Source: Pusillibacter faecalis
GTDB taxonomy: Bacteria; Bacillota; Clostridia; Oscillospirales; Oscillospiraceae
Length of the DNA stretch: 64,000 bases
NCBI RefSeq assembly: GCF_018408705.1
Contig: NZ_AP023420.1
Location: 1,922,001 to 1,986,000 of the forward strand
Reading direction: 5' to 3'
Shown: positions 36,231 to 60,735 of the stretch, in pieces
Layout of the letters: each line of letters starts with the position of its first letter
Numbering within the stretch: position 1 is the stretch's first letter
The notes under the pieces: model-generated
Seen by the model: only the letters and a program-made list of their open reading frames with translations
What the model was told of the DNA's origin: nothing
Databases searched by the model: none
Position numbers and translations under genes: made by a program

Positions 36231-37517
36231 GTGGACGAGATCAGAACGCTGCTGGAAGGAGTCCGGCTTCCCCGCATGTTTCGTGTGCGGCAGATATTTG
36301 ACCATACCTGCATCCGGAGAGAGGAACTGAGGAGAACCGTCTCCCATCTGCTGACAGCGGAAAAGCTTGGAAAGCGGATTTGCCCGGGAATGCGGGTTGC
36401 ACTGACAGCGGGCAGCCGGGAGATCTGCAACATGGATGAAATTCTCGCGGCCGCAGTGGAGTGCTTGAAAGAACAGGGAGCAAGGCCGTTTATCGTACCT
36501 GCAATGGGAAGCCACGGCGGGGCGACCGCAGAGGGACAGCGGGAGCTGCTGGCCTCCTATCAGATCACAGAAGAGCGCTGTGGCTGCCCGATCCTCTCTT
36601 CCATGGAGACGGTCCCGATCGGCAGCACGCCAGACGGGCAGACAGTGTTCCTGGACCGGTACGCGGCTGAGGCAGACGGAATCTTGGTTGTGAACCGAAT
36701 GAAGGCTCACACCGGCTTTCGGGGCCGTTATGAGAGCGGCATTTTGAAAATGATGGTAATCGGACTTGGCAAACAGACTGGCGCTGAGGCATGTCACCGT
36801 CGGGGATTCGGCCATATGGCGGAAGATTTGGAGGCCTTTGGGCGGGTTGTCCTGCAGAAGGCGCCCATCCTGGGCGCTATCGCCATCCTGGAAAATGCAT
36901 TCGACGAAACTGCACAGCTGGTGTGGCTGGAGCCGGAGGAAATTCTGGAGCGGGAGCCGGGACTGCTGGAACAGGCTAAAGCCCAAATGCCGCAAATTTT
37001 GCTGCCGGAGTGCGATGTGCTGATTGTCGATGAGATCGGGAAAAATTACAGCGGCACCGGTATGGACCCCAATGTTACCGGCCGGCACGTGACGCCCTAT
37101 TGTTCCGGTGGACTTCGAGTCCAGCGGATTGCCGTCTTGCGCATGAGCGGCAAATCCCATTGCAACGGATACGGGATTGGAGCGGCAGACTGCACCACAC
37201 AGGCGGTTTACCGTACATTGGACCTGCGGGCTATGTATATCAATGGCCTGACCTGCGGAGAGATGGGGCCCTGCCGGATTCCCTGTGTATGGGAAACGGA
37301 AAAGCTTGCCATCCAGGCGGCCGTCCGCATGTGCGAGGGGATTGGGAGACAAGGGCCGCGGATGATCCGGATTCCGAATACACTTTCTCTGGAAAAAATC
37401 ATGGTTTCAGAAAATCTCCGGGCAGAGGTGGAAAAAAATCCCCGGCTGGAAATCCGAGGCGAACCGGAGAACTTCATCTTTGGCGAAGATGGTTGCCTGT
37501 CCTCCTCCATTGGATAG
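36231..37517 (+). CDS. LarA-like (DUF2088) domain protein
   Basis: The 428-residue protein carries the nickel-dependent lactate racemase N-terminal fold: VALTAGSREICNMDEILAAA near residue 60, FIVPAMGSHGGATAEGQREL near residue 85 and NRMKAHTGFRGRYESGILKM near residue 155, the last with the conserved Lys-x-His. LarA racemases epimerise 2-hydroxy acids. However, the diagnostic C-terminal LarA residues are not obvious to me, and many DUF2088 proteins are untested. The start is a GTG seven bases after TGAGGAG. It is the last gene of the TRAP operon and could act on a 2-hydroxy acid product. Confidence 0.78.
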   Translation: MDEIRTLLEGVRLPRMFRVRQIFDHTCIRREELRRTVSHLLTAEKLGKRICPGMRVALTAGSREICNMDEILAAAVECLKEQGARPFIVPAMGSHGGATAEGQRELLASYQITEERCGCPILSSMETVPIGSTPDGQTVFLDRYAAEADGILVVNRMKAHTGFRGRYESGILKMMVIGLGKQTGAEACHRRGFGHMAEDLEAFGRVVLQKAPILGAIAILENAFDETAQLVWLEPEEILEREPGLLEQAKAQMPQILLPECDVLIVDEIGKNYSGTGMDPNVTGRHVTPYCSGGLRVQRIAVLRMSGKSHCNGYGIGAADCTTQAVYRTLDLRAMYINGLTCGEMGPCRIPCVWETEKLAIQAAVRMCEGIGRQGPRMIRIPNTLSLEKIMVSENLRAEVEKNPRLEIRGEPENFIFGEDGCLSSSIG

Positions 37518-37552
37518 GGATCGAGGGAGAGTACGGTTTTATTAGGAATGCA

Positions 37553-37586
37553 CACGGCTCAGGGACCTTACCGTTCCTGAGCTGTG
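37553..37586 (+). terminator. Hairpin after the cluster A operon
   Basis: Fourteen-base arms beginning CACGGCTCAGG, with two G-T pairs and a six-base loop, lie 36 bases past the LarA-like stop. No T-run follows, so termination is uncertain. Confidence 0.45.
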
Positions 37587-37664
37587 CGGTGGACAAGATG
37601 CTTTTTGAAAAAAGCTTGATCAAAAGATGGGCAGATCGCCGCCAAGTACCGCCGCTCTGCAAAA

Positions 37665-37696
37665 AACACCCCGTAACCGGTAAGTTACGGGGTGTT
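37665..37696 (-). terminator. Minus-strand terminator without a present-day gene
   Basis: Perfect 13-bp stem AACACCCCGTAAC with its complement and a T-run only on the minus strand (TTTTTTGC). It probably once ended a minus-strand transcript from the mobile-element remnant to its right. Confidence 0.65.
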
Positions 37697-37806
37697 GGGC
37701 TGACGTTTGCTGCTAGAAAAATACAGGCGAACTGGTTTGCACCCAAACCCAAATCGAAGCGGGTTCGGTTTGGAGCGGAGCGGGGGCACATGAGCTTGCT
37801 CCGACG

Positions 37807-37829
37807 TGGTAGATGATACAGGACTTGAA
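37807..37829 (-). repeat. tRNA-3'-end-like fragment, possible old attachment site
   Basis: These 23 bases match the 3' end of tRNA-Val(GAC) at 53602-53624 at 20 positions (T-arm and acceptor side, starting at the encoded CCA). No tRNA gene is present here. It lies beside an integrase remnant, so it may be half of an old att duplication. Confidence 0.45.
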
Positions 37830-38035
37830 TTGAAGAGAATTCATTTACTCTATACTACTCTGCATGAAATAATTTGAAATTATTTAGCGAGGCTCTGGGC
37901 AAGAGTCCAAGAGCTTTTATCACACCCTGTTGCAGGCTATAAAAAGCAGTTCCCTCTCTCAGAAGGAAGAATTAATTGATTATATTGAAAAAAAGATATT
38001 TATAACGATTTGCTTTTTGAAAAGATACAGATGCA
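37830..38035. other. AT-rich gene-free DNA with a minus-strand terminator
   Basis: I see no gene. AAATAATTTGAAATTATTT (37867-37885) is a small inverted repeat. The hairpin at 38022-38053 is listed separately. Confidence 0.4.
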
Positions 38036-38053
38036 CTATGGCATCTGTATCTT
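38022..38053 (-). terminator. Terminator of the integrase remnant
   Basis: AAGATACAGATGC and its complement (13 bp, perfect) with a six-base loop; the minus-strand product ends TTTTC. It lies immediately behind the integrase pseudogene. Confidence 0.7.
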
Positions 38054-38427
38054 CACTATATGGCCTGCCCGATTACGTTGCACATCGTATCCACCGCTTG
38101 GCACATCATACCCGGCGTGGCGTGAGGGTGCAGGTGCTGAGAGCGAAGCCTGCGCTGTAATGCTCCAGGGGGTGGACGGGGTCTTCGCATCCACCCCGTT
38201 TTTCAGAGAAAAGGTTGCGAAGGTGTGCCTAAGATCGGGAAACCAAATATGTTCCACACCAATGGCTTTTTTCTGCTTCTCCTTGACTCCGGCCTGGATC
38301 TTGCCCGGAAATTTTTTGCTTTCTGCTTCCCGGCTACCAGGTCATAGGACGCCATGAAGAATCTCTTCCACCGGCTGTCCTTCCGCTTGCGGATGCAGCC
38401 CTCACCGTTGCACGTTCCTTTGCCCAT
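38036..38427 (-). pseudogene. Tyrosine recombinase (integrase), internally deleted and frameshifted
   Basis: The N-terminal 45-50 codons (MGKGTCNGEGCIRKRKDSRW) match the AP2-like arm-binding start of Tn916-like integrases. They run straight into the C-terminal catalytic part in another frame: FPDLRHTFATFSLKNGVDAK with the box II Arg and His, then, after another frameshift, LEHYSAGFALSTCTL and QAVDTMCNVIG. About 250 internal codons, including the core-binding domain and the first catalytic Arg, are missing. The usual length is near 390 residues. The start has AAGGGAGAG eight bases upstream and lies just after a DUF6809 gene, the normal order of such elements. Confidence 0.82.
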
Positions 38428-38430
38428 CTA

Positions 38431-38730
38431 TCATCTCTCCCTTCTCGCCAGATCACAGGCCCGATGTTTGTCTTCGGTCTCAAAGTGGCATGGCGGCTGG
38501 TCCGCCAGAAGCTCCTGTTGGATGCCCTGAGCCAGACGATAACCAGAGATGAAGCTGTTGAGACAGGCTTCCTCCCGCAGAGCATTTTCCAGGTCTGCCG
38601 TCTTCAGGAGCAGCTTCTGCTCTGGCTTATTCAGCAGACGGGTGAGGTGCCTGTAGGTCCATTCAATCTTCCTGCCCAGATACTCCGCCCTCCGGGATGT
38701 CGTCTCGAACCTGCAGCAGAGGGCTTTCAT
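38431..38730 (-). CDS. DUF6809-like protein of a mobile element
   Basis: A 99-residue frame reads KALCCRFETTSRRAEYLGRK, EWTYRHLTRLLNKPEQKLLL, LREEACLNSFISGYRLAQGI and ends ACDLARRER. This is the small, helical, charged protein often found immediately upstream of an integrase in Clostridia (DUF6809). Its stop is three bases from the integrase start. The in-frame sequence extends 16 codons further upstream; ATG 38730 is preferred by similarity, though AGGAGG lies 20 bases away. It looks intact, but its partner is dead, so it may be unexpressed. Function unknown. Confidence 0.6.
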   Translation of the reverse strand: MKALCCRFETTSRRAEYLGRKIEWTYRHLTRLLNKPEQKLLLKTADLENALREEACLNSFISGYRLAQGIQQELLADQPPCHFETEDKHRACDLARRER

Positions 38731-38778
38731 ATAATCACGCGTGATGCGCCCCCTCCTGTCAGCGACACACAATGCCAT

Positions 38779-39097
38779 TCTTCACTTAATATCCTTGTTC
38801 CTCTCCTGCCGCAGGAGTAATTTTTATTTGTTACCGTTAGCCAGGTTAAATCACTTCCTCACATTTGACGCAGGAAAGTGGCATGGAATTTGAGGGCAGG
38901 GATCTTTCAAGATGGATGTGTATTTTATGGACCTTGTGGCATAGGTGCTGGCCTTCTTGTCACAAGGACAACTTTTCAAAATGCGGGGTTTATGGGTCAT
39001 TCCCATTAATAATTTCAATTGCATATTACTACGCATTTCTTTGCAAAAATAGTGATAATAACTAAATATAAGCCGGATTTTTATGAATACTGACACA
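38779..39097. other. Gene-free DNA left of the LacI promoter
   Basis: About 320 AT-rich bases without a recognisable gene; a minus-strand frame of 81 codons (38851-39096) has no ribosome binding site or similarity that I can see. It probably belongs to the mobile-element remnant. Confidence 0.4.
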
Positions 39098-39147
39098 TTG
39101 ACAACGTTCCCATAAAAAGTTAGAATACTTCTACAGAAAACGTTCCC
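39098..39147 (+). promoter_or_regulatory. Autoregulated promoter of the LacI-family gene with two operators
   Basis: TTGACA (39098-39103), 17 bp, TAGAAT (39121-39126). Operator-like sites GACAACGTTCCC (39100-39111, over the -35) and GAAAACGTTCCC (39136-39147, near +10) share the AACGTTCCC half of the perfect palindrome GGGAACGTTCCC found further along the cluster. Confidence 0.8.
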
Positions 39148-39168
39148 AAAAGAAGGAGGGAGGATAAT

Positions 39169-40152
39169 TTGATTACGATTAAAGACTTAGCCGCTGCATC
39201 TGGCTTGTCGAAATCCACAGTTTCTCGGGTAATCAATCATTCTCCCAATGTAAAGCCTGAGACGCGGGAACGCGTGATGGAGGCTGTCGAAAAGTTGGGC
39301 TACCAGCCGGATATTCTGGCTCGTGGGATGATTACCGGCATGCTTCCTATGGTGTTGGTAATTGTTGGAGATATTCAAAACCACTACTTTACCCAGGCCT
39401 TGGCAGGTATCGAAACAACCCTGGAAGAACAGGGGTTCATGGTCGTGGTATTTGACAGCAGTTACGACCCAGAGAGGATCGTAACATCTATTCACATGGC
39501 TAAAACCTGCCGCTTTGCTGGAATTATCCCTATGACCGGATTTGGCAGCAAACGGGTCATTTCCACCTTACAGGACTTAGATTGTCCAGTGATATTGTTA
39601 AACTGTCATAGGGACCATGTAGCGTTTGACCGGATCTATGGCGACGACTTTGGCGCCGGATATGCTGCTACTCGGGCACTACTCCGGCGTGGATACCGTC
39701 AAATCTATCACTTCTCCGGCAACTCCACAGAGTCCTTTATCAGCGCGGAGAGGGAGCGAGGCTACCTTGCGGCCATGAAAGAGGCAGGAATCTCAGTTGA
39801 TGGCAGCATGGTGCTCCGAGGTGATCTTCGCCAAGACAGCGGAGCACGGCTGGCAGCGCGGTGTCTAAAGTCGGCAAAGAGTCAGGTAGCCCTTTGCTGT
39901 AACAACTTTTTGATGTGCTTGGGCGCTATGAATTATGCGCAGCAGCATGGCCTGGTCATGTGGAAGGATTATGGAATGGCCATTTGCGAACAACCGCCAG
40001 TCTTCTTTATGAAAAGCGAGTTTATTTATGCGGGCCCCAAGCTCCGGGAGATTGGGAGAGCGGCCGCACAGCTGCTGCTGGATCGCATCAATCATCCAGG
40101 TAGGAAACCAGCAGTTCAGCCGTTTCCAATGTTGGATATATATGACCCATGA
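39169..40152 (+). CDS. LacI/GalR-family transcriptional regulator of cluster B
   Basis: The 327-residue protein starts ITIKDLAAASGLSKSTVSRV, the LacI helix-turn-helix, then the hinge helix VKPETRERVMEAVEKLGYQP. A periplasmic-binding-protein-like sensor domain follows (MVLVIVGDIQNHYFTQALAG, then GFDRIYG-type core near 150-160). The start, read as TTG at 39169, is eight to ten bases after GGAGGGAGG. It should bind palindromic GGGAACGTTCCC-type sites seen at its own promoter and upstream of the TRAP and cupin operons, probably as a repressor released by the substrate. A short hairpin terminator follows. Confidence 0.93.
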   Translation: MITIKDLAAASGLSKSTVSRVINHSPNVKPETRERVMEAVEKLGYQPDILARGMITGMLPMVLVIVGDIQNHYFTQALAGIETTLEEQGFMVVVFDSSYDPERIVTSIHMAKTCRFAGIIPMTGFGSKRVISTLQDLDCPVILLNCHRDHVAFDRIYGDDFGAGYAATRALLRRGYRQIYHFSGNSTESFISAERERGYLAAMKEAGISVDGSMVLRGDLRQDSGARLAARCLKSAKSQVALCCNNFLMCLGAMNYAQQHGLVMWKDYGMAICEQPPVFFMKSEFIYAGPKLREIGRAAAQLLLDRINHPGRKPAVQPFPMLDIYDP

Positions 40153-40175
40153 TCTCCCATCAGATCAGCCTCCCC

Positions 40176-40210
40176 CGCTTTTTGCCTGCCAAAAAGCGAG
40201 GAAGCTTTTT
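40176..40210 (+). terminator. Terminator of the LacI-family gene
   Basis: CGCTTTTTG and CAAAAAGCG (9 bp) with a five-base loop, followed by GAAGCTTTTT. Confidence 0.6.
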
Positions 40211-40211
40211 C

Positions 40212-40336
40212 TATAAAATGGGAACGCTCCCATATTTCGGGTTTGTGCAGGATCTGCATAAACTGCCCGCACAGGTCCGATAAATATTATCCCCCGTTGC
40301 GGGCGATTTTCTTGCACTGTTTTGGGAACGCTCCCA
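40212..40336 (+). promoter_or_regulatory. Control region of the cluster B TRAP operon with two identical operators
   Basis: The 14-bp palindrome TGGGAACGCTCCCA occurs identically at 40219-40232 and 40323-40336, 104 bp apart. The first directly follows TATAAA (40212-40217), a likely -10. The spacing, about ten helical turns, would allow looping by a tetramer. No strong -35 was found. Confidence 0.8.
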
Positions 40337-40447
40337 GAAACAACCTGCTATAGCCAGGAAACGAAGTGCCCGTTCTTACTGGATATGACCGGAGACGGTG
40401 TCTTCGGAACATATAATTTTGCAAATTATAAAAGGAAGGTATGACTT

Positions 40448-41488
40448 ATGAAAAGAAATTGGATGATTCGCGCAAAAAGAATATCAGCGCTACTGTTGGG
40501 AACTGTACTGCTGGGTTCCCTGGCAACTGGCTGCGGCGGCAGCAGTTCCTCTGATAATGACTCTGCTGCCGAGGGGGGCACTACGACCATCCAGATGGCC
40601 ACCGGCGGACAGGATACCCTGCCCAGTTATGCTACAGTGCTGGATGTAATCGATGATATTCAGGAGAACACCGACATTGAGTTCAGCTATTTTGGTTCCC
40701 GTCAGTTGGGCGACGATGCGGAAATCGTGCAGCAGGTCATGGCCGGTACCATTCAGATGGGCGGTACAGCTGCATCTGCCCTGAGCACCTACACGGATTT
40801 GCTGGACGCCTTTACAGTGCCCTTCCTGCTGGATACCTATGAAAAAGAACGGGAGGCTATGGTGAGCGAAGAGGCTCAGGCCATTTTTGATGCCGTGGAA
40901 GAAGAGTTGGGGCTGAAAATCTTTGTGGCCTATGATTCCGGCATGCGCTACTTCGCCAATAATATCCGCCCCATCGAAACCCTGGATGATGTAAAGGGCC
41001 TGGTGCTGCGTGTGGCCCCTGCTGATATTCTGTTAGACTCCTTCTCCGCCATGGGAATCAATCCCTCCACCCTGGCCTATGGCGAATTGTATACCGGTCT
41101 TCAGAATGGTACCATCGACGGTGAGGAAATCAATATTACCTCCATCTATTCCGAAAAGCACTATGAGGTGCTGAAGTATTTCACTGACATGGGTATCTAT
41201 CCCTTCGCTACTGTTATTTTCGCCAACGCTGACTGGTTTAACTCCCTGCCGGCAGATGAGCAGGAGGCTATTCAGAGTGCTTTCACCAACGGCTACAACT
41301 ACCTCTTTGACCAGCACCTGCCTGAGGCGGAGGCTGCCGGCTTGCAGGCAATGGAAGATGCCGGCATTGAAATCTCCAGCGTACAGAATCCACAGGAATT
41401 CCGGGATGCGGTTGCTGATGTGGTAGAGACTTATCGGAACCGGGACGACCTGACCAAAGCTTTTATCGAGATGGCGGAGGGCCTGTGA
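40448..41488 (+). CDS. TRAP transporter substrate-binding lipoprotein (DctP), cluster B
   Basis: The 346-residue protein has a lipoprotein signal (SALLLGTVLLGSLATGCGG, lipobox Cys near residue 29) and a DctP domain. Landmarks are FSYFGSRQLGDDAEIVQQVM, AGTIQMGGTAASALSTYTDL, VLRVAPADILLDSFSAMGIN with the carboxylate-binding Arg, and YTGLQNGTIDGEEINI. It should present an organic acid to the DctQM unit encoded next. Start lies eight bases after AAGGAAGG. It is only distantly similar to the DctP of cluster A, so the two systems probably take different substrates. Confidence 0.94.
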   Translation: MKRNWMIRAKRISALLLGTVLLGSLATGCGGSSSSDNDSAAEGGTTTIQMATGGQDTLPSYATVLDVIDDIQENTDIEFSYFGSRQLGDDAEIVQQVMAGTIQMGGTAASALSTYTDLLDAFTVPFLLDTYEKEREAMVSEEAQAIFDAVEEELGLKIFVAYDSGMRYFANNIRPIETLDDVKGLVLRVAPADILLDSFSAMGINPSTLAYGELYTGLQNGTIDGEEINITSIYSEKHYEVLKYFTDMGIYPFATVIFANADWFNSLPADEQEAIQSAFTNGYNYLFDQHLPEAEAAGLQAMEDAGIEISSVQNPQEFRDAVADVVETYRNRDDLTKAFIEMAEGL

Positions 41489-41526
41489 GCCACCCCGGAA
41501 TCTCTTAAACCAAAGGAGGATTTTGT

Positions 41527-42057
41527 GTGAGAACACTCTTTTCTGCCTACGAAAAACTGATGGATATCATCTACTCCGTGATCCGGATCTGCATTGCCGC
41601 TGCATTGGTGGTTATGGTTGTTGTTACCTTTGTGGAGGTTATTCGCCGCTATGCGTTCGGCCTATCCTTTATCTGGTCTGAGGAATTGGTCCGGTTCCTC
41701 TTGGTAGCTACATCCTTTCTGGGCGGCGCCGCGGCCTATCGGGCCAAGGCTCTGGCTCTGTTGGATCTTGTGACCAGCCGCCTGAACCACGCTACTCAGA
41801 AGATCATCGACATGATCGTGACGATTATGATCATCGGCGTGTGCGGGTATCTCTCGGTGCAAGGCTACGCCTACTCCTTCTCCCCGCAGATTGCCAACAT
41901 GCTCAGTACCGGTTTGGACCTGCAGATGACCTATGTCTATCTGACGATTCCCATCGGCTTTACACTGATTATTCTCTTCGGCATCGAGCATTTGGCCCAG
42001 ACGCTGTTTTTTGCGCCTGATGAGTCAGTCGGAGAACTGAAAGAAAAGGAGGGCTGA
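41527..42057 (+). CDS. TRAP transporter small permease subunit (DctQ), cluster B
   Basis: The 176-residue protein has four membrane helices and the DctQ signature EVIRRYAFGLSFIWSEELVR near residue 38, followed by FLLVATSFLGGAAAYRAKAL and a final helix LTIPIGFTLIILFGIEHLAQ. It pairs with the DctM encoded three bases downstream. The start codon read here is GTG at 41527, six bases after AGGAGG. It has the same length and helix plan as the cluster A subunit, but the sequences differ strongly. Confidence 0.93.
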   Translation: MRTLFSAYEKLMDIIYSVIRICIAAALVVMVVVTFVEVIRRYAFGLSFIWSEELVRFLLVATSFLGGAAAYRAKALALLDLVTSRLNHATQKIIDMIVTIMIIGVCGYLSVQGYAYSFSPQIANMLSTGLDLQMTYVYLTIPIGFTLIILFGIEHLAQTLFFAPDESVGELKEKEG

Positions 42058-42060
42058 TCC

Positions 42061-43341
42061 ATGGCAATTGTTGCCGTTATCTTTGTACTGACCTTGCTGG
42101 GCGGCGTCCCCATGGCGTTCGTCCTGGGATTGACCGGTATTGCACACCTCTTCACAATCGGGGAACCGGCATACATGTCCATTATTACCCAGCGGCTGTT
42201 TACCGGCGTGAATAATTTCTCCTTGATGTGTATTCCTTTCTTTGTCCTGGCCGGAGACCTGATGAACAAGGGCGGCGTTACCAAGCGACTTCTGAACTTT
42301 GCACGGGAGCTGGTGGGCTGGATTCCCGGCGGTATGGCTTACTGCTGCGTGATCCTGGCAATGGTGCTCTCCGCTATCCTGGGCTCCGCCAACGCAGTGG
42401 CGGCTATCCTCTGCGCCATCCTCATCGGAGAGATGGCCAAGGACGGCTATGACGCAGACTTTACCGGCTCCATCATTGCTGCATCCAGCGTGCTGGGGCC
42501 CATCATTCCCCCCAGCGTCACTTTCATCATCTATGGCGTGCTGACGGGTGTGTCTGTGTCCAGAATGTTCATGGCGGGCATTGTCCCCGGTATCATGCTG
42601 GGCATCAGCTACGCACTAATTATTACCTATTACACTAAAAAGAGGGGTTACAAGAAATCCAAGCCTCGCTTTGATCCCAAGGCATGCGGAATTGCCTTTG
42701 TAAAGGCTATTCCTGCTCTGCTGGTACCTGTAGTCATCATCGGCGGTATTATGGGAGGCATTTTCACCCCCACAGAGTCCGGCGCTGTGGCTGTGGTGGC
42801 CGCTGTAGTGGCAGCCATCATTTATCGTTCCTTTGACATCAAGTCTCTGCCTGAGGTCCTGCTGAATACCGGCATGACCACGGCGGCCATTATGCTGATT
42901 GTGGCATTCGGCAACATCATTGGCTGGAGTCTGGCAATCGAAAACATTCCCACTCTGATCACCGAGACGATTCTTTCCATCACTGACAGTCAGATCGTGG
43001 TTATGCTGCTGATTATTGCTTGTCTGTTTGTCATTGGTTGTCTGATGGATGCCTTCGCCGCCATGTACGTGTTTACGCCGGTTTTCTACCCCTTGGCCAT
43101 GGCTGTGGGTCTCGATCCCATCCACTTTGGAATTATCTTCTGCCTGATGCTCACCATTGGTCTGTGCACACCGCCGGTCGGCATGTTGCTGTTCGTGACT
43201 TCTAATATCTCCAAGGTACCCCTGGCCAAACTCAGCAAGTCCATCTGGCCCTTTGTGGCGGCCGCAATGGTGGTGGTCCTGTTGATGACCTTCTTCCCCC
43301 AGATTGTGATGTTCATCCCGAATTGGTTATCCCCCGCATAA
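42061..43341 (+). CDS. TRAP transporter large permease subunit (DctM), cluster B
   Basis: The 426-residue protein has about 12 helices and the DctM landmarks CIPFFVLAGDLMNKGGVTKR near residue 55, SAILGSANAVAAILCAILIG near residue 103, GPIIPPSVTFIIYGVLTGVS and IFTPTESGAVAVVAAVVAAI. It imports the solute bound by DctP using the Na+ gradient. The start is three bases after dctQ, with GGAGGG just inside dctQ. The unusual SANAV in place of SGSA in the first repeat may influence substrate choice. Thirty bases separate it from the DUF6282 gene. Confidence 0.94.
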   Translation: MAIVAVIFVLTLLGGVPMAFVLGLTGIAHLFTIGEPAYMSIITQRLFTGVNNFSLMCIPFFVLAGDLMNKGGVTKRLLNFARELVGWIPGGMAYCCVILAMVLSAILGSANAVAAILCAILIGEMAKDGYDADFTGSIIAASSVLGPIIPPSVTFIIYGVLTGVSVSRMFMAGIVPGIMLGISYALIITYYTKKRGYKKSKPRFDPKACGIAFVKAIPALLVPVVIIGGIMGGIFTPTESGAVAVVAAVVAAIIYRSFDIKSLPEVLLNTGMTTAAIMLIVAFGNIIGWSLAIENIPTLITETILSITDSQIVVMLLIIACLFVIGCLMDAFAAMYVFTPVFYPLAMAVGLDPIHFGIIFCLMLTIGLCTPPVGMLLFVTSNISKVPLAKLSKSIWPFVAAAMVVVLLMTFFPQIVMFIPNWLSPA

Positions 43342-43371
43342 TGTAACAATTTCCGAAAGGACTGAATTCTC

Positions 43372-44265
43372 ATGAGTTTTTCCAAAGATATTCTGAAGGG
43401 TTTTGTGGACATGCATGTCCATGCCGGTCCCTCTGTAGCAGCCCGCAAGGTGGACGCTTACGACATGATGGAGCTAGCTGGTGAGGCCGGTTACAGGGCC
43501 TTTTTGGTGAAGGACCACTATTTCCCCACCATGATGGGTACCCGGATGATCACCGATCACTGCTCGAAGAATGAATGCCAGTGCTTTGGTGGGCTGGCGC
43601 TGAATCGGTCTGTGGGGCTTTTCAACGTTTACGCAGTGGACGCTGCCTGCAACATGGGAGCCAGGACTATCTACATGCCTACGGTCTCCTGCGTGAACCA
43701 CATTGCCGGCCACTCCGGCGGCCACAAGTTTGTAGGTTCCGGTGACAGCTCCGTGGTGGACAATGGCATTGAGTACGTGGACGCTAACGGTCAACTGCAT
43801 CCCGGCGCTGTGGATGTAATTTCCTACATTGCCACAAAGCATCCGGAGGTAGTTCTATGCACCGGCCACGGCACTGCGCGGGAAGTAGACGCTGTGGTGC
43901 GTAAGGCTGTGGAACTGGGGGTCCCCAAAATCTGCGTGAATCATCCACACTTCCTGGTGAACGCTACCTATGAGCAGATGAGGGAGTGGGCCGACCTGGG
44001 CGCCTATATTGAACTGAACGCCGCCGTGTTCAGCTCTATCGCTAAGTCCGGCACCTGTTCCGATGAAATGGCCGGCAAGATACTGGAGATAATTCCCACC
44101 GAAAAAATCGTGCTGGACTCCGATCTCGGACAGAAGGTAAACGTAGATCCTATTACCGGTATGCTACAGTTTATTAACCTGTTGGCAGACCAGTTTGGCA
44201 TCACAGAGGAGCAGATTAACCTGATGGGCAAGAAAACGCCCGCCATGCTGTTGGGACTAGACTAA
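43372..44265 (+). CDS. DUF6282 family putative metal-dependent hydrolase
   Basis: The 297-residue protein resembles the amidohydrolase/PHP superfamily: VDMHVHAGPSVAARK near residue 12 has the HxH metal motif, VKDHYFPTM a further His, CTGHGTAREVDAV and KICVNHPHFLVNAT later His residues, and VLDSDLGQ an Asp at the expected end of the barrel. DUF6282 proteins are uncharacterised. Its place as the last gene of the TRAP operon suggests it opens a ring or cleaves an amide or ester in the imported compound. Ribosome binding site (AAAGG) is weak and 11 bases away. Confidence 0.8.
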   Translation: MSFSKDILKGFVDMHVHAGPSVAARKVDAYDMMELAGEAGYRAFLVKDHYFPTMMGTRMITDHCSKNECQCFGGLALNRSVGLFNVYAVDAACNMGARTIYMPTVSCVNHIAGHSGGHKFVGSGDSSVVDNGIEYVDANGQLHPGAVDVISYIATKHPEVVLCTGHGTAREVDAVVRKAVELGVPKICVNHPHFLVNATYEQMREWADLGAYIELNAAVFSSIAKSGTCSDEMAGKILEIIPTEKIVLDSDLGQKVNVDPITGMLQFINLLADQFGITEEQINLMGKKTPAMLLGLD

Positions 44266-44310
44266 GATTTATCTTCAAGGGAATGAACAGTCAGCAACTA
44301 TACGCGAAAA

Positions 44311-44324
44311 TGGGAACGTTCCCT
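44311..44324. promoter_or_regulatory. LacI-type operator before the cupin/CoA-transferase operon
   Basis: TGGGAACGTTCCCT contains the perfect 12-bp palindrome GGGAACGTTCCC. It matches the sites at 39100, 39136, 40219 and 40323, and lies 68 bases before the cupin start codon. A clear promoter was not found beside it. Confidence 0.8.
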
Positions 44325-44391
44325 TCTAGATTTTTGTGAAACTAAAGTACGAAACCGTTTGTTTATTATTACTAAGAGGAGGAATTTTATT

Positions 44392-44793
44392 ATGGAAAAG
44401 GCAAGCGAAGCAATGTACGGGAATTTTTATGAGGCTCCCTGGCAGCCGGTTCGGGAAGGCATTGGCCGGGTGGTGTTTGCAGGCGCACATGCCAAGGGCT
44501 GCACCCTGGCTCTCGCAGAGTGTCAGAATGGCAACGCTGTGCGTCCTCACACGCACCCCCATGCCCAGTTGGCCATCGTCCTGCGGGGCCAGTGCGACTA
44601 CTATGTGGACGGCAAGCCCTACCGCATGAAGGAAGGTTCCTGGGTTTTTGTTCCTGCTGATGTGGAGCATTACATCCATGTCTATGACAGTGATGTGCCC
44701 GTGATGAACCTGGACGTGTTCTTCCCTGAGCGTATGGAGTACGTGGATGCCTACGATGAGTTTGTGGCAGGCCTGGAGGAAAAGCAGGGCTGA
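44392..44793 (+). CDS. Cupin-domain protein
   Basis: The 133-residue protein is a single cupin: motif 1 is NAVRPHTHPHAQLAIVLRGQ (His-x-His-x4-Gln), motif 2 is GSWVFVPADVEHYIHVYDSD (Pro-x4-His). The His residues should bind a divalent metal. Small cupins of this kind act as isomerases, dioxygenases or sugar-acid isomerases, or as ligand sensors; no closer assignment is justified. The ATG is nine bases after GAGGAGG. It opens the third operon of cluster B behind a LacI-type operator, and a 15-bp hairpin separates it from the CoA-transferase genes. Confidence 0.82.
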   Translation: MEKASEAMYGNFYEAPWQPVREGIGRVVFAGAHAKGCTLALAECQNGNAVRPHTHPHAQLAIVLRGQCDYYVDGKPYRMKEGSWVFVPADVEHYIHVYDSDVPVMNLDVFFPERMEYVDAYDEFVAGLEEKQG

Positions 44794-44835
44794 CCCCAGC
44801 GATCGGTCAGGCAGCTGGCTCCGGCATTTAACGTT

Positions 44836-44869
44836 ACAGCATTTACCAGCACCAGCTGGTAAATGCTGT
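44836..44869 (+). terminator. Hairpin between cupin and CoA-transferase genes
   Basis: A perfect 15-bp stem ACAGCATTTACCAGC with its complement and an ACCA loop. No T-run follows (AATGATT), so it may be a stabiliser or partial terminator. Confidence 0.55.
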
Positions 44870-44912
44870 AATGATTCCGGCAGAAAGTGGCCGGCTGTGA
44901 AGGAGGAAATAC

Positions 44913-45590
44913 ATGGTCAACAAAGTGAAAACCGCTCAAGAGGCGTTAGAAAACCTCCGTGAAGGGGCGGTCATTATGGTGGGTGGGTTTGCAGGTGCGG
45001 GCTCACCTAACGCGTTGTGCGCCATTTTGGCGGAGATGGGCTACCGAAATTTGACGGTGATCAGCTGTGATGCCGGAAGAGCCGGCGTAGGCGTAGGCGC
45101 CCTGCTGCGGCGGGGCATGGTTAAGACGCTGTATGCTTCTCACGTGGGTGTTAACACAGAGGTGGCCGGACGGAAACCCGGCGATGTGGTATATGATGTG
45201 GAGTATCAGCTGATCCCCCAAGGGACTCTGGTGGAACGGATCCGGGCCGGAGGAACCGGCCTGGGCGGATTCCTGACGCCGGTGGGCCTGGGTACTGTTG
45301 TGGAAGAAGGAAAACCCACGCTGGAGCTGGATGGTAGAACCTACCTGGTGGAGCGTCCTCTGCGGGCAGATTTTGCCCTGATCCGGGGTAGCGTGGTAGA
45401 CCGCAGTGGCAACGTGTTCTACAACATGTCCACCCGGAACTTCAACCCCGCGATGGCCTTGGCTGCGGACCACGTGATTGTGGGAGCAGAGAAGGTGGTC
45501 GAAGTGGGAGAATTGGATCCCAACCACGTGATGACACCCGGCATTCTCGTGGAATCCATTGTGGAGGGGGAAGAACCGTGCTGGATATGA
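44913..45590 (+). CDS. 3-oxoacid CoA-transferase-type subunit A
   Basis: The 225-residue protein is a family I CoA-transferase alpha subunit: GAVIMVGGFAGAGSPNALCA near residue 21 (glycine-rich CoA loop), LIPQGTLVERIRAGGTGLGG near residue 95 and YLVERPLRADFALIRGSVVD. Together with subunit B it moves CoA from an acyl-CoA donor (for example succinyl- or acetyl-CoA) to a free acid. Its end overlaps subunit B by 13 bases. It lies next to a thiolase, the arrangement of 3-oxoacid and 3-oxoadipate degradation operons, which fits activation of a 3-oxo acid before thiolysis. Confidence 0.9.
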   Translation: MVNKVKTAQEALENLREGAVIMVGGFAGAGSPNALCAILAEMGYRNLTVISCDAGRAGVGVGALLRRGMVKTLYASHVGVNTEVAGRKPGDVVYDVEYQLIPQGTLVERIRAGGTGLGGFLTPVGLGTVVEEGKPTLELDGRTYLVERPLRADFALIRGSVVDRSGNVFYNMSTRNFNPAMALAADHVIVGAEKVVEVGELDPNHVMTPGILVESIVEGEEPCWI

Positions 45591-46234
45591 AGGAGCGAAT
45601 TGCATGCCGTATTGCCAAGGAATTGAAGTCCGGCGACGTGGTGAACCTGGGAATCGGGCTTCCTGTCAAGGTGGCCTATTTTCTTCCGGAGAACGTGGAA
45701 GTGACGTTTGAATCTGAGAACGGCTTTCTGGGTATTGCTACGGGCAGTGCAATTACTAACCCCAATCCGGACCTGTTGGATGCTGGAGGCCAATATTCCG
45801 CTATCCAGCCCGGCGCCTGTTTCTTTGATTCCGCGGAGAGCTTTGGCCTGATCCGTGGAGGGCATATCGATATTACCGTGCTGGGCGCCATGCAGGTGGA
45901 CGCGCAGGGAAATTTGGCTAATTGGGCTGTCCCTGGCAAACTGGTGGTGGGCATGGGCGGTGCCATGGATCTTGTAACCGGTGCCCGGAAGGTAATCATC
46001 GCCATGCTTCACACCAACAAGGGAGCCTATAAAATCATGAAACAATGCACGCTGCCGCTGACCGCGGTGAGCGTGGTGGATACCATTGTGACGGAGATGG
46101 GGGTTATCCGCGTGACGGAACGCGGTCTAGTTTTAACGGAACGATTTAAGGACTATACCGTAGAGCAGATCCAGGCCGCCACTGAGGCGGAACTGATCAT
46201 CCCCACAGATTTAAAAGTCCTGGAGACCCCCTGA
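45578..46234 (+). CDS. 3-oxoacid CoA-transferase-type subunit B
   Basis: The 218-residue beta subunit contains the catalytic Glu in FESENGFLG (the SENG motif) near residue 50, preceded by VVNLGIGLPVKVAYF; later GGHIDITVLGAMQVDAQGNL and GGAMDLVTGARKVI are typical. The Glu forms the covalent glutamyl-CoA intermediate, so the pair should be active. The GTG at 45578 is seven bases after GGAGGGGG and preferred; ATG 45587 gives an ATGA overlap instead. Substrate acid is not determined by sequence; butyrate, acetoacetate or 3-oxoadipate types are all possible. Confidence 0.92.
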   Translation: MLDMKERIACRIAKELKSGDVVNLGIGLPVKVAYFLPENVEVTFESENGFLGIATGSAITNPNPDLLDAGGQYSAIQPGACFFDSAESFGLIRGGHIDITVLGAMQVDAQGNLANWAVPGKLVVGMGGAMDLVTGARKVIIAMLHTNKGAYKIMKQCTLPLTAVSVVDTIVTEMGVIRVTERGLVLTERFKDYTVEQIQAATEAELIIPTDLKVLETP

Positions 46235-46266
46235 CCTTTGGGACACTACGGAAAGAAGGATATCAC

Positions 46267-47457
46267 ATGAGTGAAATGAAAGACGTTGTCATAGTGAGCA
46301 TGGCCCGTACCGCCACGGGAAAATTTGGTGGTTCCCTACGGGATGTGCCCGCTCCTGTTCACGGCGCGGAGTGTGTGAAAGCCATGGTTCAGCGCACGGG
46401 GATTGACCCTCACGAAATTGACGAGGTGATTATCGGCACTCACTTCCAGGCAGGTATCAAGGCGAATTCTGCCAGACAGTGTGCCCTTTACGCCGGGCTG
46501 CCGGATACTACTCCTGCCTTTACCCCCAACAAAAACTGCGCTACAGCCATGAAAGCCATGCAGTGCGCTGCCCAGTCCATTCAGGTGGGAGACAATGACC
46601 TGGTGATCGCCGGCGGCTGTGAGACCATGAGCGCCATTCCCTACATCGTTCCCAAGGCCCGGTGGGGTTACCGCATGGGACCCGGCCGGTTGGAGGACAG
46701 CATGCTCTACGACGGCCTGGTAGACCCCTTCAAAAATTACCACATGGGAATTACCGCTGAAAACGTGGCCAAGAAGTGCGGAATTACCCGAGAAATGCAG
46801 GATCGCTTTGCCGTGGAGAGCCATCGTCGGGCGGAAAAGGCCTGGGCAGAAGGCAAGTACGACCAGGACATTGTTCCCATCATGGTGCGTCAAAAAAAGC
46901 AGGACGTTGTATTTGATCATGACGAAACGTATATCAAGGATGCTCAGTATGAGAATTTCGCCAAGCTGAAGCCCATCTTCACGCCGGACGGAGGAACCGT
47001 GACCGCAGGCAACGCATCTCCCTGCAACGACGGCTCCGCCGTGGTGATGATGACTACCCCGGAGAAGGCTGCACAGCTTGGCTTGAAGCCTCTGGCCCGC
47101 TATGTGACGGCGGTTTCTACGGCGCTGGACCCTGCCATTATGGGGTATGCCCCAGTCAGTGCAATCGAAAAGCTGGAGAAAAAAACCGGCATCAGCCGCA
47201 AGGATGTGGGGCTCTTTGAACTGAATGAAGCCTTTGCCGCTCAGGCAGTGGCCTGTGTGCAGGACCTACATCTGGACCCGGAGCTGGTGAATGTGAACGG
47301 CGGTGCCATTGCGCTGGGCCATGCAGTGGGCTGCACCGGCTGCCGGATCAGCATGACGCTGATCCGTGAGATGGCCCGACGGAACGTCCGCTACGGCGTG
47401 GCGTCGCTGTGCATTGGCGGCGGTCAGGCCATGGCTATGATGTTCGAGCTGTGCTGA
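46267..47457 (+). CDS. Thiolase (acetyl-CoA C-acyltransferase)
   Basis: The 396-residue enzyme has the three catalytic parts of thiolases: the nucleophilic Cys in PNKNCATAMKAMQCAAQS near residue 89, NGGAIALGHAVGCTG with the His, and CIGGGQAMAMM with the second Cys. It either cleaves a 3-oxoacyl-CoA to acetyl-CoA and a shorter acyl-CoA or runs in the condensing direction. Within this operon, after a CoA-transferase, the degradative direction is more likely. NEAFAAQAVA is also conserved. Start follows AGAAGGA by seven bases. Confidence 0.93.
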   Translation: MSEMKDVVIVSMARTATGKFGGSLRDVPAPVHGAECVKAMVQRTGIDPHEIDEVIIGTHFQAGIKANSARQCALYAGLPDTTPAFTPNKNCATAMKAMQCAAQSIQVGDNDLVIAGGCETMSAIPYIVPKARWGYRMGPGRLEDSMLYDGLVDPFKNYHMGITAENVAKKCGITREMQDRFAVESHRRAEKAWAEGKYDQDIVPIMVRQKKQDVVFDHDETYIKDAQYENFAKLKPIFTPDGGTVTAGNASPCNDGSAVVMMTTPEKAAQLGLKPLARYVTAVSTALDPAIMGYAPVSAIEKLEKKTGISRKDVGLFELNEAFAAQAVACVQDLHLDPELVNVNGGAIALGHAVGCTGCRISMTLIREMARRNVRYGVASLCIGGGQAMAMMFELC

Positions 47458-47489
47458 CGACAGTCATCTAAGAAAGTGAGGCGACAAGC

Positions 47490-48257
47490 ATGCAAATGAA
47501 AAACTTTCTGAAGGAGAAGCTGGCCAGGAAGCCCTATGTGCTGGGAGCCTTCGTGGCATCCTGCAGTCCAACTAATGTGGAGATTCTAGGCATGAACGGC
47601 CTGGATTTTGTGATCCTGGACATGGAGCACTCCCCCCTGGGGCTGGAGACCATGGTAGACATGATCCGGGCCGCCGAGGCCTACGGTATGGTGGCAATTC
47701 CCCGGGTCTACACCATCGAGACAAAGCTGATGCGCCGTGTGCTGGACATCGGTGCTCATGGACTGTTGGTGCCCATGGTCAATACTATGGATGACGCCCG
47801 GTACGTTTTAGACGCCGTGAAGTTTCCGCCCTTGGGCCAAAGAGGCATGAACGCCGGTCGGGGACCTCGCTGGGGTGCTTACGACCACTATATCCAGGAA
47901 GCAAACGACGCGCTCTTTACCATGTTCCAGTGCGAGACCCGCGAGGGACTCCGCAACGTGGAGGAGATGGCAAAACTGGAGGGCCTGGATTCTATTTTCA
48001 TCGGCACTGGTGATCTGTCTCTGGACATGGGACACCCCCAGGATCTCAAGAATCCCGAGGTAGCCGGCGCCATTGACACGATCCTGAATGCCTGTGTGAA
48101 GAACGGGAAAATCCCCGGCATTGTAACCGGCACCCCTGAAGCTGCTGCGGAGCGAATTCATCAGGGCTTCCGGATTGTCACCATTATGAATGATCTGGGA
48201 ATGTTCAAAAAGCAGTCCCAGCTGCAGATCGACAAGGTTCACGCACTCTGTCCGTGA
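47490..48257 (+). CDS. HpcH/HpaI family aldolase/citrate lyase-like protein
   Basis: The 255-residue protein is a TIM-barrel class II pyruvate aldolase: FVILDMEHSPLGLETMVDMI near residue 34 (metal-binding and catalytic region, with the His), IPRVYTIETKLMRRVLDIGA with the Arg that binds the keto acid, GAHGLLVPMVNTMDDARYVL and MFQCETREGLRNVEEMAKLE. FIGTGDLSLDMGHP completes the metal site. The family splits 4-hydroxy-2-oxo acids into pyruvate and an aldehyde. Its presence implies a carbon-carbon cleavage step of that sort in this pathway. Start is after GAGGCG. Confidence 0.9.
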   Translation: MQMKNFLKEKLARKPYVLGAFVASCSPTNVEILGMNGLDFVILDMEHSPLGLETMVDMIRAAEAYGMVAIPRVYTIETKLMRRVLDIGAHGLLVPMVNTMDDARYVLDAVKFPPLGQRGMNAGRGPRWGAYDHYIQEANDALFTMFQCETREGLRNVEEMAKLEGLDSIFIGTGDLSLDMGHPQDLKNPEVAGAIDTILNACVKNGKIPGIVTGTPEAAAERIHQGFRIVTIMNDLGMFKKQSQLQIDKVHALCP

Positions 48258-48304
48258 GAAACAGTGCACAGATCTCACAAGCCAATTTTTGCGAGGTAGT
48301 TTCA

Positions 48305-49081
48305 ATGAAGAATGTACAGTTGGAGGTCGCGGATCAGATCGCGACAGTAACCATTGACCGGCCCAAGGCACTCAACGCGCTGAACACGGAGACTCTGAGC
48401 GAGCTCAAGGAGTGCTTTTCCGAGCTGGAAAAGCAGAAGGACGTCCGGGTGGTGATCTTGACAGGCGGCGGAAACAAGTCCTTCGTGGCGGGCGCGGACA
48501 TCTCCGAGATGGTCAACGCCACGCCGGCGGAGGGCCGGGCCATGTCACTGCTGGCCATGGAGGCGTTCAACAAGCTGGAGAATATGCCCCAGGTGACTAT
48601 TGCGGCCGTTAATGGCTACGCCCTGGGCGGCGGTTGTGAAATCGCCATGAGCTGCGACATTCGGATTGTTGCAGAGAACGCGGTGTTCGGCCAGCCCGAG
48701 TGCGGCCTGGGGATCATTCCGGGCTTCGGTGGCACCCAGCGTCTGGCGCGGCTGATCGGAAAGGGCCGGGCCAAGGAGTTGATCTTTACCTGTGACCGGA
48801 TTGATGCCCAAGAGGCCTATCGTATGGGCCTTGCCAACAAGGTGGTTCCCGCAGACCAGCTGATGAGGGCCTGCCAGGAGATGGCGGGCAGAATTCTCAG
48901 CAAGGGCAGCTATGCGGTGAGCATTGCCAAGAGTATGATCAACGCGGGCATGGATATGGATCTGAACAACGCCCTGAAGATGGAGGCGGATGCCTTTGGC
49001 TTCACCTTCTCCACCCACGACAAGGAGGAGGGCATGACTGCTTTCCTGGAAAAACGCCCAGCCAATTTGACGGATTTTTGA
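48305..49081 (+). CDS. Enoyl-CoA hydratase/isomerase (crotonase) family protein
   Basis: The 258-residue protein has the crotonase oxyanion-hole motifs SFVAGADISEM near residue 66 and NGYALGGGCEIAMSCDIRIV near residue 105, plus FGQPECGLGIIPGFGGTQRL with the two Glu-region acid residues of hydratases. It should add water to, or isomerise, a 2-enoyl-CoA. ATG 48305 follows GAGGTAG by five bases; the frame from 48254 overlaps the aldolase stop and lacks a site. It is the last gene of the operon. A terminator follows. Confidence 0.94.
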   Translation: MKNVQLEVADQIATVTIDRPKALNALNTETLSELKECFSELEKQKDVRVVILTGGGNKSFVAGADISEMVNATPAEGRAMSLLAMEAFNKLENMPQVTIAAVNGYALGGGCEIAMSCDIRIVAENAVFGQPECGLGIIPGFGGTQRLARLIGKGRAKELIFTCDRIDAQEAYRMGLANKVVPADQLMRACQEMAGRILSKGSYAVSIAKSMINAGMDMDLNNALKMEADAFGFTFSTHDKEEGMTAFLEKRPANLTDF

Positions 49082-49089
49082 ATAGGGTG

Positions 49090-49120
49090 ACAGGCGGGAA
49101 TTGTACCAGTTCCCGTCTGT
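49090..49120 (+). terminator. Terminator of the cluster B catabolic operon
   Basis: ACAGGCGGGAA and TTCCCGTCTGT (one G-T pair) with a nine-base loop, followed by TTTTTAC. Confidence 0.85.
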
Positions 49121-49124
49121 TTTT

Positions 49125-50039
49125 ACTTGTATCAAAGAGAAGGTGCTGTTTTTAGGCACTTTTACTGCGAATATTTCATGGCCACATGAGTGTGGCAGCG
49201 GATCTATGTCCGTTAACAGGGTTAGTGAGAAATAGAGAAGACACAGCAGATATTGATTTCGATAGTTACAATCGCACCAGCAAGGCAGCCCCTTGCGGAA
49301 AAATCCCCGACTCCGCCCAATGAGCAGAGCCGGGGGTTGACCAATACGCTGACCAATATCCGGATATCAGTGGGTGGACACAGTGGACAATGACCGCTTG
49401 TCTGTTTTGAAAAAAGTGAAGCCAAACCTACCGGAAAGTGCCCAATCGCAGGTCTTTGACGTCCTTACGGATCTTCGCACGCAGGAGGTCACTGGCTTAG
49501 GTCCGGTAGTCTCTGTCAATTGCCTCTGAATTTGCGCCAATTTGGTAATTTTTTTATTTTTTGCAACTTTTTTGAATGTTTATTTTGTGTTTTCAATTTG
49601 ATCCAAGCCATGCCCCATGCGGGACTTGGAACAGGGAGAATTGGACGGCACTGGGTGGAACTTTTCCCTCTCTGGTCAGAAAAAGGGCACACAGCGTTTT
49701 AAGGATGGAAACAACTCCTTCGAGGCCGCGTTTGGCTTTTCTTCGCCTTAGCGTATCATTATTATTGCCTGATTTTCATGCAGCCGTTTCCTGCTACTGG
49801 ACTCCCGGCTGTTAAAAGTGGGTGCAGTTTTCTGCCCCAGAAAGGAGGTTGGCTGCCGCCTGGAGCAAGCCGACCGCGATGCTTGCCCTACCCAGGTGTG
49901 GGCTGTTTTGCCAGGGCAGAACTTCTCATTTGAACGCAGGGGAGGACAATCTCCTTTATTACAGCATGTCACAATCAACTTGAAATATGTTGTGTATATC
50001 CAGAAGGATATCCGACTGCGGGGGTCTGCCCATAAACAC
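49125..50039. other. Gene-poor stretch, probably degraded DNA
   Basis: More than 900 bases with only short, unsupported frames. A frame around 49415-49510 reads KVKPNLPESAQSQVFDVLTD and may be the worn tail of a regulator, but nothing else of it is left. CCCCGACTC/GAGCCGGGG (49302-49332) is a weak inverted repeat. T-rich DNA lies near 49545-49575. I find no functional gene or RNA here. Confidence 0.45.
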
Positions 50040-50170: not shown

Positions 50171-51163
50171 TTACTTCAGCTTTCCAGCCACTTCCCGGAG
50201 CAGGGACTCCGACGGGTTTTTCCGATCTGCCGTGGAGACCTCGGCAATGAGCTTCAGCAGGCTCACATTCTCCTCTTCGGCCACCCTTTTGAACATGGGC
50301 AGGAAGTTGGAATGACAGCCGGACAGACCCAGCATCAGGTCCGTGGGATTTACCGCCACATGGTAGTTGTACGCTTTCATGATGGGGATCAGCTCCCGGT
50401 CCAGATAATCCAGCAAGGCGTAGAGGTCTACCTCAGGTAGATACCCCTCCTTTTTCAGCGTGGCGGCAGCCAGCTCTGTGGCACAGTTACCAGCGGATCG
50501 GGCCATGCCTAGTAGACCGCAGTCGATCTCGTCTGCTCCGGCGGCTACCGCTGCCAGCGCATTGGCCTGAGAAAGACCCAGGTTGCTGTGACCGTGGAAG
50601 CCCACAGGGATGCTTAAGGAGACCTTGAGGGCTTTTGTGTAAGCGGCGGCCTCGGCAGGGAACATGGTGCCTGCAGAGTCCATGATGGTAATCTTGTCCA
50701 CGCCGGCGGCCTGGAGCATCTTTGCCTCATCGGCCAGCTCTGCAGGGGTGGAGACATAGGCTTTCATCAAAGAGTAGCGGCAGGTAAGGCCGGCGGCCTT
50801 AACCATCTTCACTGCGGCCACGGAACTCTCGCCGTCTCCGGCGTTGGCGCCCACCCGCAGGAAGCTGAGCCCTGCTTCGGCGGCTTTTTGAATTTTTTCT
50901 GCCTTGGCGCACTTAGACAGCAGGAACATCCCGATGCGGCCCCGGGACAAGTAGGGCTGGAGGAGCTGAAAATACTCCTCATCGGATGGCGCCTTGTCAG
51001 CCCCCAGCTGGTCGTATGCTCCCAGGCCTTTGCAGTTGCCCAACTCGATGTCCCGGATGCCGGCAGCCAGCAGGCCTTCTATGATGCTCGTGGTCAGCTC
51101 CAGAGAAAAGCCGTGCCCTACAACATTGCCGCCATCCCGGAGGGTGTTGTCAAATAGATTCAT
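50171..51163 (-). CDS. HMGL-family aldolase, 4-hydroxy-2-oxovalerate aldolase-like
   Basis: The 330-residue TIM-barrel protein begins NLFDNTLRDGGNVVGHGFSL, matching the metal-binding D-x-TLRDG motif, and has GFHGHSNLGLSQANALAAVA near residue 193 with the two metal His residues. The LRDGG form and length fit the DmpG/MhpE group, which splits 4-hydroxy-2-oxo acids into pyruvate and aldehydes, rather than isopropylmalate synthases. No aldehyde dehydrogenase partner is adjacent. It follows a dead TRAP permease by 20 bases on the same strand, so it may be a relic operon or a transferred part of cluster B. Ribosome binding site is weak. Confidence 0.82.
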   Translation of the reverse strand: MNLFDNTLRDGGNVVGHGFSLELTTSIIEGLLAAGIRDIELGNCKGLGAYDQLGADKAPSDEEYFQLLQPYLSRGRIGMFLLSKCAKAEKIQKAAEAGLSFLRVGANAGDGESSVAAVKMVKAAGLTCRYSLMKAYVSTPAELADEAKMLQAAGVDKITIMDSAGTMFPAEAAAYTKALKVSLSIPVGFHGHSNLGLSQANALAAVAAGADEIDCGLLGMARSAGNCATELAAATLKKEGYLPEVDLYALLDYLDRELIPIMKAYNYHVAVNPTDLMLGLSGCHSNFLPMFKRVAEEENVSLLKLIAEVSTADRKNPSESLLREVAGKLK

Positions 51164-52245: not shown

Positions 52246-52334
52246 ATGATTATTTCTATTAAGAACGCTGTAAATACAAGGCTTTTCGGAGCCTACGAAC
52301 CACAAAAAATAATATTTGATCTATCATATTACAC

Positions 52335-60380: not shown

Positions 60381-60392
60381 GAAAATCTGCGG

Positions 60393-60421: not shown

Positions 60422-60427
60422 ATTGCC

Positions 60428-60706: not shown

Positions 60707-60735
60707 CGTTCCAAGCATCTGAAAGGAGCATATGT

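Follow-up and report, generated by a model that had tools for sequence, protein, structure and literature searches.

A predicted local LacI-family regulon with central-CG palindromes beside TRAP uptake and CoA-linked breakdown genes of Pusillibacter faecalis

The DNA analysed here (the window, 64,000 nucleotides of Pusillibacter faecalis contig NZ_AP023420.1, positions 1,922,001 to 1,986,000) carries a gene for a LacI-family regulator and, behind it on the same strand, a row of genes for uptake and coenzyme A (CoA)-linked breakdown, accompanied by five short palindromes which a preliminary description of the sequence had taken for the operators of a single repressor. The regulator gene (39169..40152, plus strand, TTG start) encodes 327 amino acids and has the domain make-up of the family, an N-terminal LacI helix-turn-helix (HTH; PF00356, 1.1e-18) and a periplasmic-binding-protein-like domain (PF00532, 3.3e-24). 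The row itself, likewise on the plus strand, runs from the tripartite ATP-independent periplasmic (TRAP) transporter genes dctP, dctQ and dctM (40448..43341; PF03480, PF04290, PF06808) through the gene of a DUF6282 protein of 297 amino acids (43372..44265; PF19799, 1.1e-62) to genes assigned by domain or profile matches to a cupin, CoA-transferase subunits A and B, a thiolase, an HpcH/HpaI-type aldolase and an enoyl-CoA hydratase (44392..49081), the last of which closes the row at 49081.

All five palindromes were found where they had been described. The regulator gene, lacI for short, is preceded by a sigma-70-like promoter on the plus strand (39098..39126, TTGACA-17-TAGAAT, 11 of 12 consensus letters), and TTGACA with a -10 box at the same spacing of 17 bp also stands at the equivalent position in both same-genus orthologues. 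The predicted operator O1, GACAACGTTCCC (39100..39111; operators are given without strand), overlaps the -35 box, and O2, GAAAACGTTCCC (39136..39147), lies just past the expected start point, at about +4 to +15 if the start is placed from the -10 box, in agreement with the positions at -35 and near +10 named in the preliminary description. Downstream of lacI a terminator-like inverted repeat with a T-rich tract (40170..40204, plus strand) was noticed by eye, although the terminator scan did not flag it, and between it and dctP two identical sites occupy the 295-bp gap, predicted distal operator O3 (40219..40232) and proximal operator O4 (40323..40336), both reading TGGGAACGCTCCCA with the core GGGAACGCTCCC (40220-40231 and 40324-40335) and standing 104 bp apart, start to start. 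The fifth site, O5, GGGAACGTTCCC (44312..44323), is located inside the gene row, within the 126-bp gap separating the DUF6282 gene from the cupin start used here. A scan of the window with up to two mismatches gave the CoA-transferase genes no site of their own, so that any control by the regulator would reach them through the operon to which they belong. The 134-bp leader of the cupin gene matches only itself in the genome, by which the idea of O5 as a repeated element was rejected, and an RNA switch at the locus was rejected as well, an Rfam scan of 37400-50000 having returned nothing over threshold.

Whether such sites exceed chance was judged from the genome, of which 3,407,680 bases were scanned (97.65% complete). 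With up to two mismatches 139 matches are found, corresponding to 0.21 expected in the 5.2-kb locus against the five seen there (Poisson probability about 3e-6, a figure that is partly circular, the motif having been derived from these very sites). Exact GGGAACGTTCCC occurs in the genome as a single copy, O5. Ten places match with at most one mismatch, namely O3, O4, O5 and seven others, of which six fall into open frames of at least 119 amino acids (five on contig C1 and the sixth on contig C2, in a 175-amino-acid frame, locus L014) and one stands before another LacI-family gene (contig C2, locus L015); the motif is thus not equally common elsewhere in the genome, the possibility that would have undone the proposal. 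O1 and O2 have two mismatches each, a level shared by 139 genomic places, and rest on position and conservation. Conservation also supplies a test free of circularity: the 21-kb Lachnospiraceae locus L024 described below contains three exact copies, where shuffles give 0.003 on average, and matches with at most one mismatch number 3, 3, 3 and 2 in G040, G045, L024 and L025, respectively, against shuffle means from 0.00 to 0.05. A chance origin of the sites was rejected by their genome-wide placement together with this conservation.

Regulator orthologues are rare. Of 149 genomes three have one, counting the window's own; a sample of 400 genomes of the family gave only the own genome and G045, and 391 genomes of the class only the own genome and two relatives of 33-34% identity. 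In the 3.9 kb scanned for each, two LacI relatives at this level (L109 and L110, Arg-Ser at the recognition residues considered below) show no site, even with two mismatches allowed. The same three genomes of the 149 that have the regulator, again counting the own one, also have a close DUF6282 orthologue (89-92%). Four orthologous loci were compared with the window: those of the same-genus genomes G040 (regulator 76% identical) and G045 (73%), L024 from a scan of named genomes (46%, Lachnospiraceae), and L025, a short contig. In G040 the genes are kept through enoyl-CoA hydratase, the counterparts of O1 and O2 are 36 bp apart as in the window, O1 being identical, and the TRAP pair is GGGAACGATCCC twice, 86 bp apart. 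G045 keeps the genes through the aldolase, with no match to enoyl-CoA hydratase in the stretch examined, and has one lacI site and a TRAP pair of GGGAACGGTCCC and GGGAGCGTTCCC at a distance of 120 bp; the O2 counterpart TGGAACGTTCCC is found at the same place in both. In L024 the same genes are retained through the thiolase, the aldolase being divergent and enoyl-CoA hydratase again without a match in the stretch examined, and exact GGGAACGTTCCC stands at lacI and twice before the TRAP genes, together with a weaker GGGAACGTTTTC. On L025 the lacI site is exact, and dctP is preceded by a single GGGAGCGTTCCC, 39 bp 5′ of its start. Overall, at least one site is found in the lacI promoter region of all five loci, O4 has counterparts in all four relatives and O3 in G040, G045 and L024, so that the TRAP genes are preceded by two or more sites in four of five loci.

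Between the TRAP pairs of the window and of its same-genus relatives, the letter second from the centre is changed and the pair is retained. It was also observed that each of the seven TRAP operators outside L024 (those at 40220 and 40324 and their counterparts in L012, L013 and L025) has exactly one imperfect half, that the imperfection always concerns the second base from the centre, and that the deviating letter varies by species, with both sites of a pair agreeing in two of the three pair-bearing genomes. All of the 18 sites collected from the five loci retain CG in the middle and A/T at the third position outward, and the outer G letters are retained in 32 to 34 of 36 half-sites, a constancy that is partly due to the choice of sites at up to two mismatches.

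As for the protein that would occupy these sites, alignment places Lys and Ser at recognition positions 15 and 16 of the regulator (K15 and S16, within SKSTVSR). Six LacI-family genes are present in the genome by PF00356 search, and their residues 15 and 16 are Lys-Ser (the 39169-40152 gene), Val-Ser, Thr-Ala, Lys-Thr, Ile-Thr and Pro-Ala; besides the regulator gene, only the Val-Ser gene has a site with up to three mismatches in 320 bp upstream. The count was extended to Lys-Ser LacI loci from many phyla (80 at first, 78 after removal of L066 and L073, which proved not to be Lys-Ser and neither of which has a site). Within 250 bp upstream, or less where a contig ends, 26 of these 78 have the palindrome with at most one mismatch, 22 of them exactly, and 39 have it with at most two, as compared with 12 and 46, respectively, of 4392 control 250-bp tiles of the same loci. 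Where the residues are different, 1 of 55 LacI genes has the palindrome, and this one is the Val-Ser gene of the same genome. For this comparison 69 of 93 LacI-family matches were used, from which 12 were dropped when the HTH pattern was not found; the remaining 57 comprise the 55 and two Lys-Ser genes, one with a site at up to one mismatch and one without, the latter not TVSR. Perfect TGGGAACGTTCCCA was additionally noted before Lys-Ser LacI genes of Chloroflexi, Spirochaetes, Thermotogae and Gammaproteobacteria (including L039, L041, L045, L047, L055, L063, L071, L094, L100 and L102), whose regulators are only about 26-33% identical to that of the window.

These counts agree with the published recognition code, in which, as set out in the relevant part of Camas et al. 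(2010; PMC2978694), residues 15 and 16 set operator letters 5 and 4 in the TVSR group, residue 16 being the stronger determinant. Like members of that group the regulator has TVSR, here with Lys-Ser at 15/16, and in its operator NT-6 is G, the letter associated with Arg-20, and NT-5/NT-4 are GG (PMC2978694, same part). The link from Lys-Ser to GG comes from the locus counts given here and not from an entry in the table of that work. The association of Lys-Ser with the palindrome and its fit with the code thus point to the local LacI as the probable binder.

A further comparison concerns the pathway. Nine stretches of 7 to 10 kb (87 kb in total) surround DUF6282 paralogues of 44-55% identity that are not adjoined by the regulator of the window, eight from same-genus genomes lacking a match to it at E 1e-40, some of them incomplete drafts (as low as 60%), and the ninth around the own genome's second copy. 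TRAP gene matches are found in seven of the nine, cupin and aldolase matches in the other two. None of the nine contains a palindrome with at most one mismatch, and four matches appear at two mismatches. Since only about 0.3 matches at the stricter level would be expected by chance in 87 kb at the genome rate, this absence counts against a site set tied to the type of pathway, not against chance. The own second DUF6282 gene (45%; L022/L196, G000:C1:2219000-2229000) is adjoined by its own TRAP genes and a thiolase and, as judged by eye, a fumarylacetoacetate-hydrolase relative, with no palindrome; in general, DUF6282 genes often lie next to TRAP, cupin, aldolase or thiolase genes. The DUF6282 protein gave no match among solved structures at E 0.1, and the term was not found by a literature text search.

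Taking together the positions of the sites, their conservation beside orthologues, their absence (at up to one mismatch) from the regulator-free DUF6282 stretches and the Lys-Ser association, we infer that the protein encoded at 39169-40152 is very probably a LacI-family repressor which binds TGGGAACGTTCCCA-like palindromes and controls itself as well as the uptake and breakdown genes. The regulator, most likely as a dimer, would bind these palindromes; occupied O1 and O2 would block its own promoter (autoregulation), and binding at O3 and O4, in this species at O5 too, would restrain TRAP uptake and the CoA-linked breakdown genes (DUF6282, cupin, CoA-transferase, thiolase, aldolase and enoyl-CoA hydratase), until the regulator is released by an inducer, for which the imported acid or one of its products is the probable candidate. 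At lacI, promoter occlusion as the predicted mode of action is well supported by position, O1 overlapping the -35 box and O2 covering about +4 to +15, and since O2 alone is left in G045 next to an intact promoter, it may be the essential lacI operator. At the TRAP genes both a block of initiation and a block of elongation are conceivable. Better TRAP promoter candidates are met in the relatives, TTGACA-16-CAGTAT in G045, ending just before the distal site, and TTGCAA-17-TAGTAT in L024, between the TRAP sites. O5 probably gives the downstream half of the row an additional block or a control step of its own, and it could do so either as a road-block within the row or by acting on a separate promoter.

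Several observations weigh against this scheme or narrow its reach. The number of matches in the window alone is weak evidence against chance, the six found with up to two mismatches (shuffle mean 2.97) being reached in 7 of 100 shuffles. In O1 as in O2 one of the halves is degenerate, and G045 has preserved the -35 box but not O1. No O3 counterpart is found in L025, which has one TRAP site, and an O5 counterpart is absent from the shorter gaps of G040, G045 and L024. Thus the expectation that the sites be conserved beside orthologues holds for lacI and TRAP and fails for the cupin gene, which has a site in one of four loci and lacks it in the three others that have the gene. The TRAP sites of the window are accompanied by no good sigma-70 promoter, the best candidates reaching about half the lacI score, and the genus-conserved TATAAT-like box at 40412-40417 is 77 bp downstream of O4. 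With respect to the recognition residues, 39 of the 78 Lys-Ser loci have no site even at two mismatches, these loci were picked partly through a pattern that contains SKST, and they come from many phyla, while the 55 comparison genes come from 31 genomes of one class; nor are the 26 positives independent, three being orthologous loci and six close relatives of the Xanthomonas group.

The sixth match of the window, GGGAATGGTCCC at 60494, has no central CG and falls into the leader (60380-60740) of a gene that by eye resembles O-acetylhomoserine sulfhydrylase. The same leader contains TGGTACCGCGG, which we take to be T-box-like; Rfam found no family over threshold in it.

Three other accounts of the palindromes have to be set beside the local repressor. 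The first attributes them to the global regulator CcpA, as cre sites, and draws on the similarity of the motifs, the cre consensus being one letter from TGGGAACGTTCCCA, and on CcpA being the regulator's nearest solved structure by sequence. Against this, the six LacI-family genes found in the genome all score below the ccpA cut-off of 442 bits (best 187, the regulator 121), and a global motif would be expected to be scattered, whereas outside open frames places with at most one mismatch are limited to this locus and the front of one LacI gene, and the nine DUF6282 stretches without this LacI contain none. We consider this account highly improbable and, with no ccpA-grade gene in the genome, rejected it. 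The second keeps the local regulator and lets the Val-Ser protein (gene at C2:113390) bind the same sites, two regulators sharing them. The Val-Ser gene does have an upstream site one mismatch from the consensus, GGAAACGTTCCC followed directly by GGTAACGTTT (L015, G000:C2:112000-115000, 1340-1361; centres about 12 bp apart), and residue 16, the stronger determinant according to the relevant part of Camas et al. (PMC2978694), is Ser in both proteins. Residue 15 differs, however, and none of six other sampled Val-Ser genes has a site with up to two mismatches, a weak counter-argument with only one of the six being also TVSR, so that sharing appears unlikely to us. By eye, a solute-binding protein-like gene adjoins the Val-Ser LacI gene, and cross-talk with the regulon of the window is conceivable.

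The remaining account concerns the twin TRAP sites, for which the preliminary description had suggested looping; it would require a tetrameric regulator, as in the lac operon. Two or more TRAP sites in four of five loci and spacings near whole helical turns, 104 bp or 9.9 turns in the window and 63, 159 and 222 bp (6.0, 15.14 and 21.14 turns) in L024, speak for it. The spacings of 120 bp in G045 (11.43 turns) and 86 bp in G040 (8.19 turns) and the single TRAP site of L025 speak against it. In LacI tetramerization depends on a C-terminal helix, and the regulator of the window aligns almost end to end with CcpA (residues 2-305 of 327 to 3-307 of 332), the core match ending 22 residues before the C-terminus, which, by length only, leaves no room for such a helix. 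With no room for a tetramer tail and mixed spacings, looping is not favoured and seems quite unlikely.

The local LacI repressor therefore remains the reading we prefer, and by all sequence evidence the locus appears to be a conserved, ordinary local regulon. The preliminary description was right on observation and largely right on meaning: its central proposal, one repressor for itself, uptake and catabolism, is supported as a prediction by the sites beside lacI and TRAP orthologues and by the Lys-Ser association. More tentatively, the orthologous group could represent a LacI branch turned from sugars to the sensing of a TRAP-imported organic acid or a product of the CoA pathway, with O5 recently gained and splitting the row into two control units, a picture we rate as possible without leaning to it. 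In alignment A6 a Glu (E274) is invariant in 15 of 15 members, in a Cys-Glu or close variant, at a position where the fuller alignment shows Phe-Asp-Asp in a more distant relative; elsewhere in the LacI family this Asp motif makes contact with sugars or purines. Sugar acids are possible substrates too, since the aldolase has additional matches, scoring under the cut-offs, to models of sugar-acid aldolases. Outside the row, on the minus strand, a third TRAP large permease is seemingly in two pieces (51184-52305; one open frame at 51184-51621, by eye, the other at 51757-52305, PF06808) and may be a broken gene, adjoined by an HMGL/DmpG-like aldolase at 50171-51163.

The locus offers a testable regulator-operator pair for an uncharacterised TRAP/DUF6282/CoA-transferase set of Oscillibacter-type and Lachnospiraceae genomes, and the regulator's inducer would point to the substrate of the pathway. 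The association of Lys-Ser with GGGAACGTTCCC, seen in several phyla, bears moreover on the LacI recognition code. In the part of the survey of LacI-family regulons drawn on here (Ravcheev et al., 2014; PMC4052901), autoregulation is given for 72% and more than one site for about 20% of operons, and the window shares with these regulons an even palindrome with a central CG, a site before the regulator's own gene, the same motif at adjacent genes for transport and catabolism, and multiple sites before an operon. It differs from them in its target, a TRAP transporter with CoA-linked enzymes (TRAP is unmentioned in their main text), and as carbohydrate metabolism is assigned to 176 of the 182 groups with assigned pathways, an organic-acid target would belong to the minority (PMC4052901, same part). 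A literature text search for the 14-mer and the 12-mer led only to the paper on Streptomyces CebR2 (PMC9953190), which, in the section concerned, ties this regulator to cello-oligosaccharide uptake and deduces for it the consensus TGGGAACGTTCCCA, identical to that of the window; the likeness covers the operator consensus, the only feature compared, whereas CebR2 belongs to another phylum and the local transporter is of the TRAP type. CcpA with its cre sites is likewise a LacI-family regulator of nearly the same length with a similar palindrome, from which the regulator described here stands apart by its score, 121 bits against the ccpA cut-off given above, and by sites that are local rather than global.

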